This document shows positions 18,743 through 27,178 of a stretch of DNA of 27,278 nt, in pieces (the first letter of the stretch is position 1; each line of letters begins with the position of its first letter). The notes under the pieces were generated by a model. It saw only the letters and a list, made by a program, of their open reading frames with translations. It had not been told where the DNA came from and ran no database searches. The position numbers were made by a program, and so were the translations under genes. The stretch is from positions 1-27,278 of IMG/VR virus record IMGVR_UViG_3300042519_000104. One strand, written 5' to 3'. This stretch comes from a virus.

Positions 18743-19473
18743 TGGCGACCATAAGCAATACCCCTAGACCAGGCTATGCCTGGGATGCTACAGACAATGT
18801 GTGGTATCCAATTGGGACTGGTACGCACTCACACGGTGAAATACCTGCAACTATTGTAGATGCTAAAGGTGACATCATTGCTGCAACTGCAGCAGATACT
18901 GTTGCTCGTCTTGCTGTAGGTGCAAACGATACCGTACTTACTGCTGACTCTAGTACTGCTACTGGATTAAAGTGGGCAACACCTGGAATGACTTTGCTTA
19001 ACACCACTACATTTTCTGCTGTTTCATCTCAAACAATAGATAATCTGTTTAGTTCAACTTATCAAAACTATCGTATGGTTTTAACTCTTAGCGCAGTCTC
19101 AGCGGCTAACCCAAATATACTGGGATATTTCCGCTCCGCAGGTGCAGATGTAACTACAAATAACAATACAGAAAGTATTGTGCAATATTCAACAACAATT
19201 ACAGGCGCGGAAAGAACTTCTGTTATAGAGTTTGGTGTTTCTTCTACAAGTTATCCGTCGTTTTCTGTTTATGCCGTGGATATTTTTAATCCACAACTTG
19301 CCAGAATAACTTCTTTTTCATCTAATGGTGGTTTTGTAAACAGTGTTGGGCAACCTTTTCAGTACAGGTCGTTTGGTTACAACAATTCTACTACACAAAT
19401 GACAGGAATCAAAATCTATCCTTCAACTGGCACAATGACAGGTGAAGTTAGCATCTACGGATTGGCAAAATAA
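18742..19473 (+). CDS. Minor tail / fibre-like protein, 243 aa
   Basis: The N-terminus (PGYAWDATDNVWYPIGTGTH) is a collagen-free phage tail motif, followed by the very common fibre module DAKGDIIAATAADTVARLAV and GANDTVLTADSSTATGLKWA (residues about 40-80). The rest is a beta-sandwich-like head (TIDNLFSSTYQNYRMVLTLS onwards, to about 243) often placed at the tip of fibres. It does not carry the NGDF head of the two preceding proteins, so it is a third, different receptor-binding candidate. The start overlaps the previous stop (TAATG). Confidence 0.82.
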   Translation: MATISNTPRPGYAWDATDNVWYPIGTGTHSHGEIPATIVDAKGDIIAATAADTVARLAVGANDTVLTADSSTATGLKWATPGMTLLNTTTFSAVSSQTIDNLFSSTYQNYRMVLTLSAVSAANPNILGYFRSAGADVTTNNNTESIVQYSTTITGAERTSVIEFGVSSTSYPSFSVYAVDIFNPQLARITSFSSNGGFVNSVGQPFQYRSFGYNNSTTQMTGIKIYPSTGTMTGEVSIYGLAK

Positions 19474-19697
19474 TGACTGAAAAACTAAGTATCGGGATTG
19501 CGGATGCTGAAAAAGGCACAAATGAAGTTAAAGCATTAACTGGTGCTGAACTAACAGCACATCTTGCTGCACAGGCACAAGCAGAAGCATCTGATAAAGC
19601 AGTTCAAGACAAGATTGCAAAAGATGATGCTGAGAAAGCAGCACTACTAGAACGACTAGGCATCACTGCTGACGAAGCAAAACTACTGCTCGGTTAA
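19473..19697 (+). CDS. Small coiled-coil tail-cluster protein, 74 aa
   Basis: The start overlaps the previous stop (TAATG). The first ~25 residues are extended (KLSIGIADAEKGTNEVKALT). The rest is an Ala/Glu/Lys-rich helix (AAQAQAEASDKAVQDKIAKD) ending with AALLERLGITADEAKLLLG, an ending I know from many small phage proteins coded just after tail fibres. There it is annotated as hypothetical or tail protein. A coiled-coil adaptor is likely. The stop overlaps a possible micro-ORF (19697). Confidence 0.78.
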   Translation: MTEKLSIGIADAEKGTNEVKALTGAELTAHLAAQAQAEASDKAVQDKIAKDDAEKAALLERLGITADEAKLLLG

Positions 19698-19744
19698 TGT
19701 GTAAAGACTGCGGTAACTGTTCTAAAACAAATACATTTAATTAA
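19697..19744 (+). CDS. Possible 15-aa cysteine micro-ORF
   Basis: ATG 19697 overlaps the previous stop (TAATG) and encodes MCKDCGNCSKTNTFN, with three cysteines. No SD is visible. It fills exactly the space between the 74-aa gene and the AAGGAG before the displaced start at 19753. It is too short to be sure, but the TAATG junction copies the pattern of true neighbours. Confidence 0.25.
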   Translation: MCKDCGNCSKTNTFN

Positions 19745-19767
19745 GGAGTAACGTGGCAGGTCGTGAT
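19743..19767 (+). pseudogene. Displaced original 5' end of the 747-aa tail gene
   Basis: An SD (AAGGAG, 19743-19748) and GTGGCAGGTCGTGAT (19753-19767) encode MAGRD, the same first five residues as the gene at 20213 (GTGGCGGGTCGCGAT). Both base differences are synonymous. After these codons the frame runs into the antisense HNH gene and stops after seven more residues (TAG, 19789-19791). I read this as the ancestral start cut off by the insertion. Confidence 0.7.
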
Positions 19768-19769
19768 AT

Positions 19770-20171
19770 TCACTGCCACTTCTTCAAGTAGTCAATGGCT
19801 GACTGGAGGTACTCAGGGTTATCCTTGAAGTATCCCAGTCCAGCATTGCATTGAACACATAGCAATCCTCTTGCTTTGTTTTCAGTGTGGCAGTGGTCAG
19901 CACACCAATCGGATAGTCCTGGATTGTCTGTTCCACAGATAGCACAGCGATTTTCCTGCAATTCTACGTACTTGTTATAGCGGTCAATGTCCCAACCAGG
20001 ATTACGCTTCTTGTTCTGAGCACGGATAATTTCTTTATTGTCTAACCTATATTGACGTTTATATTCTTTGTAACACTCAATACATTTATGTTCTGTTCCA
20101 TTGTTGTAACCCTTTCTAGGGTAATACTCTTCAATGGTTTTCATTTTATTGCAAGTCATACAAATTTTCAC
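19770..20171 (-). CDS. HNH endonuclease, Endonuclease VII family
   Basis: This 133-aa protein has two zinc-binding regions. The N-terminal one has C4-M-T-C7 and C30-I-E-C33. The C-terminal one has C76-A-I-C79, the catalytic ADHCH block (residues 91-95), then RGLLCVQCNAGLGYFKDNP with C105 and C108 and Asn109. This is the signature of the Endonuclease VII (T4 gp49-like) family, whose small members in phages act as homing-type nucleases. Start GTG 20171 is chosen because the next ATG (residue 5) would lose C4. It is opposite to all neighbouring late genes and sits between two copies of a tail gene's first codons. There is no SD; TATAAT lies just upstream on its strand, so the message may be leaderless. 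Confidence 0.9.
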   Translation of the reverse strand: MKICMTCNKMKTIEEYYPRKGYNNGTEHKCIECYKEYKRQYRLDNKEIIRAQNKKRNPGWDIDRYNKYVELQENRCAICGTDNPGLSDWCADHCHTENKARGLLCVQCNAGLGYFKDNPEYLQSAIDYLKKWQ

Positions 20172-20177
20172 AATCTA

Positions 20178-20183
20178 ATTATA
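20178..20183 (-). promoter_or_regulatory. Candidate -10 box for a leaderless HNH transcript
   Basis: On the minus strand TATAAT (20183 to 20178) lies seven bases before GTG 20171, so transcription would begin at or next to the start codon. The gene has no SD. Leaderless mRNAs are common in Actinobacteria. No clear -35 is seen, and the stretch is short and AT-rich, so chance is possible. Confidence 0.4.
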
Positions 20184-20212
20184 TCACTTATCTAAATAAC
20201 TGGAGGTTCGCT

Positions 20213-22456
20213 GTGGCGGGTCGCGATTTGACAGACGGAAGAGCCGAACGGTCTATTGCAGTTGACGTAGGTGTAGTTTCATCTACTGCCATCTGGCAGA
20301 ACACTGACGTTGCCTATGACGTTGCAGTAGGTGGTCTTCCATTTATCTATGCAATCAATGATGCACGTCCATATATCCGCCAGACTGCACCTTATAAGAA
20401 AGACCAGTTTGATAACGGAGCAGAACCAGGTGAGCAATCACTTACTGGTTGGTGGCTACGTAGTCAATCATCCTTTCACGGTGGCGAAGGCATTAAGTTT
20501 TACGACCCATCTGCTGGAGAAACAGTTGCGCATAGGTTTACAGATAGCAAAAACGTAGATGTATGGACAAAAGGTCAAGTAACTTTACTTAAAGATGTAG
20601 TTGACACACATCAGACTACTGGTGCTGTAACTGGCACAGACCATCAACACCCTAACCAGCACGTTCGTTCTATTCAGTGGGGTGGAGTAAACGGTGTATT
20701 GCTACACGATGAGTTTGATGTAGATAAAATCTATCCATCAATTACTGTGTCTATTAGTAATAAGGCTTTAACTTCCAACGTAGCAACCCTTACTACGCCT
20801 GTAGCACACGGACTTACAGTTGGTATGACTATTACAATTACAGATGTAGATGCTACATTTAATGGTGAGTATCGTATTACAACTGTTCCTACAACAACTA
20901 CTTTTACCTATGCTAAGACCGCATCTAACGTAACTTCTACTGCAGTATCTCCAGTTGGTACTGGTGTGACTAACCCAGTAATTCACTTTATTGACTACAT
21001 TTCTGGCACAGACCCCAAGGTATTTGCTATTTGCGATGATGGCGTTAACGCCTATTGGATAACTAATAAGACAGTAGGCGGTAATCAACGTCTTACTATG
21101 TTTAAGAAACCATTATCAGGTGACTCAATTACTGGTTCATCTAATCCATCTGCAACTGGTGATGTTACCCAGATGTTTCAAAGTGGTGACACCGAAATTA
21201 TTTATGCAACAATGGAATTTGTTAAAGACCGCATTGTTCTTTGTGTTAATAATAAAGTTTTTGAAGTAACAACAACGGCTACTGCTTTACCTGCTGCTAT
21301 ATACACTAACCCTAATACTGAATATCATTACACAAGCGTGGCTGCTTCTGGTCCTGCTATCTATACAGCGGGTCATTCTGGTATCTACTCAACCATTCAG
21401 AAGTACACACTATCAACGGCTGGTGTTATGCCTACCCTTACATCAGCAGTGGTGGCTGCAGAGTTACCTGCTGGCGAGATAGTTGAAAAGATTTATTACT
21501 ATTTAGGTTATATGATGATAGGTACTAACAAAGGTGTACGTGCTGCAGTTGTATCAGACCAAGATGGCTCCATTAATTATGGTCCACTCATTGTAGAAAC
21601 ATCCCAACCTTGCTATGATTTTGCTGCACGTGATAGATTTATTTGGTGTGCTGCAGGTATTGGTGCATTAGATGCTGGTTTATACCGCATTGACCTTGGC
21701 AACGAAATAGAAACTTTACGCTTTGCTTACGCTAAAGACTTGCAGGTAACACAAAGTGCGGAGCACTATACAACAGGTGTTGCATTTCTTGGAACAACTA
21801 ATAGACTTGCATTTTGCACTGCATATGAAACAACAGATGGTGCAATATATCTTGAGTCAGCATCTACACTAGCGTCTACTGGATTTATAACTACTGGCTA
21901 TATTCGCTATGGAACACTAGAGCCTAAGAACTTTAAGCGCCTTCTTGGACGTGGTGACTTTACCTATGGCTCTATGGTTTTAGAAACCGTAGACAAAGAT
22001 GGTACAGAGTATGACCACATTTCATATGATAGAACTATTAGTCCAATTGAGGTTACTACATCTACACCAGCAACTGCTCAAGAGTATGTTGCTTATAAGT
22101 TTGTTTTAAATCGTGATACTACAACAACAAGTTTAGGTCCTATATTTAAGGGCTATCAAGCAAAGGCTACTATCGCTACTCCACGCCAGCGTGTAATGCG
22201 CTTTCCTGTCTACTGCTTTGATGTAGAGACAGACCGTTATAACACATTGGTTGGCTATGAGGGTAGAGCATCTGAAAGAATTAGACTGCTAGAAGAAATA
22301 GAAGAATCTGGTGACGTACTTACGTGGCAAGATTTGACTACTGCTGAGTCTCGTCAAGCAATCATTGAGCAAGTTACATTCACTCGTATGACACCACCTG
22401 ACAAACGCTTTGATGGGTTTGGCGGGGTCATTGAGATAACTATTAGGACAGTCTAA
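20213..22456 (+). CDS. Large tail protein, beta-propeller-like (tail nozzle candidate), 747 aa
   Basis: GTG 20213 has SD GGAGG (20202-20206). The protein is beta-rich with repeated strand-turn segments (FIYAINDARPYIRQTAPY, WLRSQSSFHGGEGIKFYDPS). An inserted Ig-like module occupies about residues 180-255 (ALTSNVATLTTPVAHGLTVG, MTITITDVDATFNGEYRITT), a type often found in phage tail proteins. Many later segments (RIVLCVNNKVFEV, GPAIYTAGHSGIYSTIQKY, YYYLGYMMIGTNKGVRAA, RFIWCAAGIGALDAGLYRID) look like propeller blades. Size and fold resemble the nozzle of short-tailed phages (T7 gp12 role), which would close the virion cluster; this is inference. Its 5' end was remodelled by the HNH insertion upstream. 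Confidence 0.75.
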   Translation: MAGRDLTDGRAERSIAVDVGVVSSTAIWQNTDVAYDVAVGGLPFIYAINDARPYIRQTAPYKKDQFDNGAEPGEQSLTGWWLRSQSSFHGGEGIKFYDPSAGETVAHRFTDSKNVDVWTKGQVTLLKDVVDTHQTTGAVTGTDHQHPNQHVRSIQWGGVNGVLLHDEFDVDKIYPSITVSISNKALTSNVATLTTPVAHGLTVGMTITITDVDATFNGEYRITTVPTTTTFTYAKTASNVTSTAVSPVGTGVTNPVIHFIDYISGTDPKVFAICDDGVNAYWITNKTVGGNQRLTMFKKPLSGDSITGSSNPSATGDVTQMFQSGDTEIIYATMEFVKDRIVLCVNNKVFEVTTTATALPAAIYTNPNTEYHYTSVAASGPAIYTAGHSGIYSTIQKYTLSTAGVMPTLTSAVVAAELPAGEIVEKIYYYLGYMMIGTNKGVRAAVVSDQDGSINYGPLIVETSQPCYDFAARDRFIWCAAGIGALDAGLYRIDLGNEIETLRFAYAKDLQVTQSAEHYTTGVAFLGTTNRLAFCTAYETTDGAIYLESASTLASTGFITTGYIRYGTLEPKNFKRLLGRGDFTYGSMVLETVDKDGTEYDHISYDRTISPIEVTTSTPATAQEYVAYKFVLNRDTTTTSLGPIFKGYQAKATIATPRQRVMRFPVYCFDVETDRYNTLVGYEGRASERIRLLEEIEESGDVLTWQDLTTAESRQAIIEQVTFTRMTPPDKRFDGFGGVIEITIRTV

Positions 22457-25500: not shown

Positions 25501-26079
25501 TCATTTCTTCTTAAGCCATAACTGGTAATCTTCTGACAGTAATTCGTACTCGCCAGTATATTTGGCAAGGAATCTATCAATGGCTGGCTTAGGTGTAAGT
25601 TCAGGTTGCAAGTCTTTACCCCATAGGTAGTCATCAAAAGCCATAATGCCACCAGACTTCAGTAGTTTCCAAGCGTTGTCTGCATCCTTGGCTACCTGAT
25701 GGGATGTGTGGTCTCCATCAATGTAGATGAAGTCAAACCTGATTGTATTGTTACCAGCAAAGTATTCATCGCTGGTCATACGCAAGCGCACCGTTGATTT
25801 CAATGTAGCAATACGTTCTTCGTAGAACTCAAAGACCTTATCAAAGTTTAATGGCTCGTGTTCTACCTCATCGGACCCAGCCCACGTATCAACATCGTAG
25901 AGGTAGGAAGTTTTATCGGTCAGGATGTTCTCGCATAGCCAGATGCTGGCATCACCAGTGAAGACACCTATCTGCAGGAACTTAAGGTCAGGTTGACCTG
26001 CTAGGTGGAGTAGGTGATTCTCAAAGTTGTACTGCTGCCCAACGAACCAGTTGGGGTAGTTCGGCGTGTCGTTTTCCAT
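25501..26079 (-). CDS. Class I SAM-dependent methyltransferase
   Basis: This 192-aa minus-strand protein has motif I FLQIGVFTGDASIW (about 34-47; the G-x-x-x-G of SAM binding), an acidic loop YDVDTWAGSDE (61-71), and the late core DFIYIDGDHTSHQVAKDADN (116-135), then KSGGIMAFDDYLW. This set fits the Methyltransf_24-type group, whose members often act on sugars or small molecules; IDGDHxxxxVxxD is typical. The substrate is unknown. With the glycosyltransferase it may modify virion or cell-surface glycans. It starts at ATG 26079 with AGGAA upstream and faces the divergent control region, so it is under separate control from the late genes. Confidence 0.87.
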   Translation of the reverse strand: MENDTPNYPNWFVGQQYNFENHLLHLAGQPDLKFLQIGVFTGDASIWLCENILTDKTSYLYDVDTWAGSDEVEHEPLNFDKVFEFYEERIATLKSTVRLRMTSDEYFAGNNTIRFDFIYIDGDHTSHQVAKDADNAWKLLKSGGIMAFDDYLWGKDLQPELTPKPAIDRFLAKYTGEYELLSEDYQLWLKKK

Positions 26080-26264: not shown

Positions 26265-26390
26265 ATGTTCAATAGAAAACTTGAAGAGTCAATTGAAGTT
26301 CTTTACGATTCAATTTGGTTACTATCAGAAGAAGTTAAAACAATTCGTGAAGAAGTAGATTACCTACTAGAAGTTTTAGATAATGATTAA
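26265..26390 (+). CDS. Small acidic coiled-coil protein, 41 aa
   Basis: ATG 26265 has SD AGGGGAAG (26254-26261). The protein is one long amphipathic helix: MFNRKLEESIEVLYDSIWLL, then SEEVKTIREEVDYLLEVLDN. Heptad spacing of Ile, Leu and Val suggests a dimeric coiled coil. As the first gene of the early operon, it could be a host-takeover or regulatory peptide, but nothing in the sequence proves it. Its end overlaps the next start by eight bases (ATGATTAA). Confidence 0.65.
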   Translation: MFNRKLEESIEVLYDSIWLLSEEVKTIREEVDYLLEVLDND

Positions 26391-26571
26391 ACTGGATTCT
26401 TACGAACTTCCAGAGCACATATCCTACTCAGCATTTACAACTTACCTTACCTGTGGTTATCAGTACTACCTAGGTAGATTACTCAAGGTACCTGAAGAGC
26501 CAAGCATCTGGTCCGCAGGTGGACGAGCATTTCACTCCGCAGCAGAAATGTGGGACATAGAAAATGGGTAG
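26383..26571 (+). CDS. Cas4/RecB-like exonuclease, N-terminal part (frame-split)
   Basis: These 62 residues (HISYSAFTTYLTCGYQYYLG, WSAGGRAFHSAAEMWDIENG) are the start of a PD-(D/E)xK exonuclease of the Cas4/RecB type found in actinophage early regions. Cys24 fits the first Fe-S ligand and His51, in GGRAFH, the active-site histidine. The frame ends at TAG 26569, and the rest of the enzyme continues in the +1 frame from 26564. Removing one A from the A4 run at 26561-26564 would join the two exactly. Otherwise, a +1 slip at GGG-TAG, or two separate peptides, could explain it. Confidence 0.78.
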   Translation: MIKLDSYELPEHISYSAFTTYLTCGYQYYLGRLLKVPEEPSIWSAGGRAFHSAAEMWDIENG

Positions 26572-27178
26572 TGCTAATGTTGGTGCAGATTACTGGGACA
26601 TAGCCTGGAGAAAAGAAACCGAAGGACTTAACCTTGATACAGCACGCCGTGCTGGGCGAGCAACAAAAGAAAATCCAAACAAAGAAGATGCTGTTTGGTG
26701 GAATAACAATGGTTCCAAGTGGGTAGATAACTACATCTCTTGGCGCAAGAATAATCCTGATTGGAAAATCTGGACAACACCTCAAGGGGCTAAGGCTATT
26801 GAATTAGAACTTAACCCTGTTATTGCTGGCGTACCCGTGAAGATGTTTATTGACAGAATTTTTGAGGTTAATGGACAACTTGTGATTGTTGACCTTAAGA
26901 CATCACGAGCACGACCACAATCCGACCTTCAACTTGGCTTCTACAAAGTAGGAGTTGAGATGATGCTCGGAGTGAAAGTCAATCTAGGAAACTACTGGAT
27001 GTCTCGTGAATCGGGGACAGGAGAGATGATTGACCTGAGTAGATATACACAGGACACACTTGAATACTTTGTTGATGGCTTTGACAAAGCACGCAAGGCT
27101 GGTATATTTCTACCGAACCTACAATCGTGCAATTTCTGTGGACTCACAGAGCATTGCCAATTCACAAAAGGAAAATAA
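26564..27178 (+). CDS. Cas4/RecB-like exonuclease, catalytic C-terminal part (frame-split)
   Basis: These 204 residues complete the enzyme. GRATKENPNKEDAVWWNNNG (31-50), WRKNNPDWKIWTTPQGAKAI (60-79) and GVPVKMFIDRIFEVNG (89-104) match the actinophage Cas4-family exonuclease pattern. The catalytic acid Asp97 and DLK (110-112) form the PD-(D/E)xK core, and QLGFYKVGVEM is the following helix. Cys189, Cys192 and Cys198 (CNFCGLTEHC) are three Fe-S ligands; the fourth lies in the N-terminal frame. Such enzymes process DNA ends in phage recombination or replication. The ATG at 26564 overlaps the first frame by eight bases, so reinitiation is possible, but this part alone lacks His51 and one cluster ligand. 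Confidence 0.85.
   Translation: MGSANVGADYWDIAWRKETEGLNLDTARRAGRATKENPNKEDAVWWNNNGSKWVDNYISWRKNNPDWKIWTTPQGAKAIELELNPVIAGVPVKMFIDRIFEVNGQLVIVDLKTSRARPQSDLQLGFYKVGVEMMLGVKVNLGNYWMSRESGTGEMIDLSRYTQDTLEYFVDGFDKARKAGIFLPNLQSCNFCGLTEHCQFTKGK

Follow-up and report, generated by a model that had tools for sequence, protein, structure and literature searches.

A putatively mobile Endonuclease VII-family gene at a phage tail gene start is accompanied by a recoded, putatively protective replacement of that start

Organization of the insertion

The window analyzed here is an IMG/VR virus record of 27,278 bp, a metagenomic fragment that carries phage head, tail and lysis genes. Within it, the gene for a 747-aa tail-region protein (20213–22456, plus strand; phrog_11667, 5e-140) is preceded by a stranded copy of its first codons, and an Endonuclease VII-family (DHHRN) nuclease gene of 133 aa lies between the two copies on the opposite strand (19770–20171, minus strand). 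On the left, the original Shine–Dalgarno sequence (SD) of the interrupted tail gene (AAGGAG, 19743–19748, plus strand) is followed by the left copy (GTG GCA GGT CGT GAT ATT, 19753–19770, plus strand), whose MAGRD-coding portion, GTGGCAGGTCGTGAT, spans 19753–19767. This side reads AAGGAGTAAC-GTGGCAGGTCGTGATATT and then at once the nuclease stop codon; because that TGA (19770–19772) adjoins the left copy, the left reading frame becomes VAGRDIHCHFFK*, a 12-codon stub ORF. The nuclease gene begins with GTG at 20171, and the spacer from there to the right copy (20172–20212) contains an extended -10 promoter box for the nuclease (TGATATAAT, 20178–20186, minus strand), 6 nt before its start codon, and a new SD brought by the element (GGAGGT, 20202–20207, plus strand), matching the GGAGG-type leader of occupied relatives. 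Downstream of this GGAGG, the tail gene is opened by GGAGGTTCGCT-GTGGCGGGTCGCGATTTGACAGACGGA. Its MAGRD-coding portion, GTGGCGGGTCGCGAT (20213–20227), belongs to a replacement start (GTG GCG GGT CGC GAT TTG ACA GAC GGA, 20213–20239, plus strand) that is recoded, as judged by its divergence from the relative L050.

The two MAGRD starts are 460 bp apart, and their 15 bases show two mismatches, both of them synonymous. These coordinates bear out a preliminary description of the locus, which had noted two MAGRD starts, each with its own SD, flanking an antisense Endonuclease VII-family gene and differing by synonymous mismatches only. It had also placed the split after codon 5; insertion at the gene start holds, but the left copy of the window reaches codon 6 (ATT).

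Relatives of the tail protein are encoded by 594 matching stretches in viral contigs, and its AlphaFold model is of low confidence (mean pLDDT 55). Among named phages, the top matches to the tail gene are OX376640 and OX376641 (66%), followed by Streptomyces phages at about 39%. The record titles of the former give LanE43-AprE7 and -AprF5, the names of phages isolated on 'Ca. Planktophila', a freshwater actinobacterium (PMC10202952). Since the closest named phages infect this organism, the window phage probably has a freshwater actinobacterium as its host too. A search of genome_contigs returned no close relative, the sole tail match being one of 33% in Herbidospora.

The nuclease matches PF02945 (Endonuclease_7; 5e-20, above the cut-off) and phrog_2633 ('endonuclease VII'; 1.7e-33), with PDB profile matches to Hpy99I (2e-11) and T4 EndoVII (2e-5). 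It displays the full Endonuclease VII motif, comprising D-H-x-H, Arg, Asn and the CX2C zinc pairs. The catalytic residues D92, H93, H95, R101 and N109 and the zinc ligands C76/C79/C105/C108 are invariant in the A1 nucleases (16 sequences), and their spacing is that of F-CphI D101/R110/N118. The median pairwise dN/dS of 0.23 indicates that purifying selection acts on the nuclease. In nearly all antisense elements a TGNTATAAT-like -10 box lies 6–8 nt before the nuclease start codon; at this distance, a leaderless nuclease mRNA is predicted. The minus-strand box also suggests antisense transcription into the upstream tail genes.

Neither an intron nor an intein appears to account for this arrangement, in agreement with the preliminary description. 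Rfam gave no match up to E=1 across 19400–20700, including to group I or group II introns, and on the right side the gene is not continued but translated anew from an SD of its own. An intein was rejected on the grounds that the nuclease is antisense to its target and that EndoVII is the sole domain found.

Empty sites in nuclease-free relatives

Relatives without the nuclease show one continuous start, SD-GTG-MAGRDITEG, spelled in most cases GTGGCTGGTCGTGATATTACCGAAGG. L001 shares all 45 bp before its start with the left side of the window, and its gene then runs on without a break as GTGGCTGGTCGTGATATTACCGAAGG; the stretch that corresponds to the left copy is GTGGCTGGTCGTGATATT in L001, L154, L167 and others. 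The exact empty-site pattern occurs in 37 viral contigs and in the two cultured 'Ca. Planktophila' phages LanE43-AprE7 and -AprF5. The uninterrupted sites in L001, in these contigs and in the cultured phages show that the left copy is what remains of the original gene, the right copy being its replacement. As expected for a homing gene, the nuclease is optional at a fixed site for which relatives retain intact empty versions. The junction predicted for nuclease-free relatives was thereby found, as SD-GTG-MAGRD-ITEG, and the case that would have spoken against an insertion, two copies of the MAGRD start without a nuclease, was sought within 3 kb and occurred in no nuclease-free relative. Empty relatives have one start, whereas in the window the right copy opens the 747-aa gene, consistent with the earlier proposal that the element hands back a replacement start. 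The insertion had further been called scarless; this is incorrect at the DNA level, as the left stub remains and recoded starts persist in nuclease-free phages.

Many phages seem to initiate the tail gene at ATC or ATA, behind a good SD; these codons are unusual for a virion gene. Such starts occur both at unoccupied sites (L003, L050/L188, L184, L186, L189, L190 and L192) and at occupied ones (L044, L100, L102–L104 and L136).

Recurrence in two nuclease lineages

Close relatives of the nuclease, 57–76% identical, were found in 27 viral contigs, and all 27 lie at the start of the same tail gene, 26 in antisense and one (L097) in sense orientation. The left codon copy is kept in 22 of 28 cases (21 relatives and the window); in the other six contigs the left junction falls in the SD. 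Wherever a left copy is kept, the right copy is spelled differently from it. Left junctions differ by a few bases around codons 5–6, which is the pattern that repair of breaks at a single cut site should leave.

A second nuclease lineage, about 38% identical to the first, occupies the same tail gene start in 18 contigs (L260–L277, including the L139 contig; L139:2983–3429) in the opposite, sense orientation. In most of its copies, the nuclease reading frame opens with the start and first codons of the target itself (e.g. MAYGDD-MQCNKC), and a second start for the tail gene follows, MAYSDD or MPYSDD in a different spelling. By sequence comparison, this lineage appears to be an independent occurrence of the same design. 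These findings match the expectation that other EndoVII genes would lie at gene starts with duplicated or captured start signals. An alignment-based search for further relatives yielded L136 as one additional locus, plus three distant loci. In L138 and L140, which encode a 38% identical nuclease, the gene lies at a different gene boundary and the duplication is absent. A variable-gap junction pattern retrieved 64 contigs, nearly all of them chance matches, and was discarded. A further EndoVII-like stretch (41% identical) is present on the plus strand of L050, 1299–1027 bases before the tail gene start, at another gene boundary.

Since the duplication is seen in 16 distinct left/right versions and again with an independent nuclease lineage, it is not due to chance. 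The window is a metagenomic fragment, in which an assembly chimera could in principle arise, but the same architecture is shared by tens of contigs drawn from different samples and spans both nuclease lineages, leaving chance similarity or chimerism with a negligible probability. Alternatively, the duplicated start might serve tail gene regulation, for instance through antisense promoter control and a decoy leader peptide, with the nuclease as a domesticated passenger. The conserved antisense promoter adjoining the new SD and the SD retained by the left stub would fit such a role. However, the left copy is decayed (GTGGTCAGTCGTGAT in L055 and L104) or absent in some elements, the second-lineage nuclease is in sense and fused to the old start, and neither feature exists in nuclease-free relatives, which makes a regulatory origin very improbable.

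Recoding of the replacement start

The most informative comparison is a near-isogenic pair, L190 (empty) and L088 (occupied), which we give the most weight because the pooled tests take no account of common descent among loci. Both flanks are 97% identical (left 113/117, right 1430/1479), whereas 8 of 27 bases differ in the 27-bp start (binomial P=1.8e-6). From L190 to L088 the start codon changes from ATC to GTG, and all changes in codons 2–9 are synonymous (GCT-GCA, GGT-GGA, AGA-CGG, GAT-GAC and GAA-GAG). Similarly, the right copy of the window differs from L050 at 10 of 27 positions against 92% identity downstream (P=5e-5).

Across loci, the start is conserved less than the downstream gene in occupied phages (72% vs 80%) and more in uninvaded ones (92% vs 87%); the Mann–Whitney P of 2e-5 for this contrast is optimistic, as are all P values from pooled loci, because the loci are phylogenetically non-independent. 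Rare Ala/Gly/Arg codons account for 16 of 47 in right copies, against 2.9 expected, and for 0 of 24 in left copies. The Arg codon (codon 4) of the left copy never equals that of the right copy, in 16 of 16 distinct pairs where 2.9 matches are expected (permutation P=0.005), and codon 4 is CGG or AGG in 7 of 17 distinct right copies as against 0 of 14 uninvaded starts. Over codons 2–5 as a whole, the mean left–right distance does not exceed that of shuffled pairings (P=0.22), and the case for avoidance of the left spelling therefore rests mainly on the Arg codon and the rare codons. Recoding of the right copies beyond background, as had been predicted, is evident from the L190/L088 pair, the L050 comparison, the rare codons and the Arg codon. 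L186 combines an ATC start with an unaltered CGTGATATT, which shows that the type of leader cannot be equated with protection.

These data bear directly on the strongest alternative, an ordinary free-standing intergenic homing endonuclease whose right start is the donor's native start, co-converted with the gene and divergent in spelling through neutral drift. Free-standing homing genes of phages are normally intergenic and drag their flanks along (PMC2988022), replacement ends in fungi have been ascribed to a diverged donor that passed them on horizontally (PMC3630166), and the recoded start could likewise simply descend from a diverged donor phage. The six contigs with a junction in the SD and no codon duplication fit this alternative as well and count against a start-replacing element. 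Neutral divergence does not readily explain why the L190/L088 difference is limited to the start, why codon 4 never equals the left copy of the same locus, or why CGG/AGG at that codon occurs in right copies but in none of the 14 uninvaded starts, and we consider this alternative unlikely.

Movement and proposed mechanism

The elements have a mosaic structure. In the L092/L094 pair the nucleases are 97% and the tail genes 76% identical, and in L044/L104 the values are 92% and 70%. Nucleases that are 92–97% identical beside tail genes of only 70–76% indicate horizontal movement, and these pairwise comparisons argue for a nuclease that moves relative to its host gene, as a homing gene would. The nuclease-free L003 has as its first six codons exactly those of the L104 right copy, and its upstream sequence resembles that of the GTG-start phage L034. 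Conversely, the left stumps of L084 and L088 are of the TTG and ATC type, like the starts of the nuclease-free L062 and L190; already altered starts have therefore been invaded. Such cases suggest cycles in which starts are invaded, lose the nuclease and are invaded again by nucleases with a new specificity.

We therefore favor, with a probability of roughly 80%, a minimal homing element that cleaves the tail gene at its start and makes it whole again with a recoded 5′ end, presumably resistant to cleavage. The anatomy of this element is strongly supported and its mechanism moderately; from sequence comparison we infer the cleavage position, the resistance of the recoded copy and homing itself. 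The mobile unit would consist of the nuclease gene, its promoter, the new ribosome-binding site and the recoded first ~6–9 codons of the target. The nuclease would cut an uninvaded phage at the tail gene start, around codons 5–6, and the invaded phage would act as repair template, with the upstream region and left copy as left homology arm and the tail gene as right arm. The left copy would survive because it is part of that left arm. The recipient would gain the nuclease, promoter, SD and recoded start, its gene being restored by the replacement start. As this start has other codons, and often another start codon, it is presumably not cut; recoding would block self-cutting while the tail protein sequence is kept.

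A broader interpretation, somewhat better than even in our estimation, is that the system constitutes a natural home-and-rescue drive, in which nucleases evolve to cut a conserved virion gene at its start and carry cleavage-proof recoded starts, with resistance alleles, re-invasion, at least two nuclease lineages and both orientations. Recoded starts would stay in circulation as resistance alleles and would later be invaded by nucleases with a new specificity, driving successive rounds of recoding at one and the same gene start.

Comparison with known systems

No report of a phage gene start that is duplicated and recoded was found in the open-access literature. The closest natural precedent appears to be the mobile endonuclease ORFs of fungal mitochondria, which replace the 3′ ends of genes (Allomyces atp6; Glomus atp6, atp9, cox2 and nad3; PMC3630166). 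In both systems an endonuclease ORF lies within a coding gene, the native terminus is stranded beside its replacement, and the replacement is nearly identical in protein yet diverged in DNA. The fungal ORFs act at 3′ ends in mitochondria and encode LAGLIDADG or GIY-YIG enzymes, whereas the phage element acts at a 5′ start in dsDNA phages, brings its own SD and promoter and encodes an EndoVII-family enzyme. Given the 5′ end and the unrelated enzyme family, the phage element would be an analogue of the fungal ORFs rather than a member of their group.

The phage-encoded F-CphI (PMC6083498) shares the DHHRN motif and its spacing (D-H-x-H, R +9 and N +17 from the Asp, CX2C pairs), and its own target copy is likewise altered such that self-cleavage is prevented. 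F-CphI is shielded by a separate group I intron (collaborative homing); the element described here is apparently shielded by target recoding, with no intron found. The T4 seg and mob genes (PMC2988022) are also selfish nuclease genes beside conserved genes that home without an intron, but they are intergenic and their cut sites usually lie hundreds to thousands of bp distant, whereas the present element sits inside a coding start and duplicates it. The engineered HomeR system (PMC7968924) integrates into an important gene that it cuts and provides a recoded rescue that can no longer be cut; it is synthetic, Cas9-based and recoded at the 3′ end, while the phage element would be natural and about 460 bp long. 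In T7-like phages (phiYeO3-12, AP5, Tarrare and Poynor), the gene 13.5 EndoVII takes the SD of the downstream virion gene (gp14), which gets a new one, an arrangement that we located in L108, L109 and L110 around 2440–2960. Duplicated or recoded codons were not seen there, and gene 13.5 was rejected as a further case.

If correct, our interpretation would add a third route, besides introns and inteins, by which a selfish nuclease can reside in coding sequence and yet leave the host gene functional, namely by carrying a replacement gene start. It would provide a natural parallel to the engineered home-and-rescue design and a record, within the population, of how one 27-bp site was recoded and re-invaded. 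For annotators, it would imply that an unusual start codon such as ATC or ATA in a phage gene may be the legacy of an earlier invasion.

Other features of the window

Two overlapping plus-strand ORFs (26383–26571 and 26564–27178) look like one RecB/Cas4-like exonuclease split between frames, possibly a frameshift or a split gene, and L016 has a seemingly similar break. Towards the right-hand end of the late genes, a 192-aa minus-strand ORF (25501–26079) resembles, by eye, a SAM-dependent methyltransferase.
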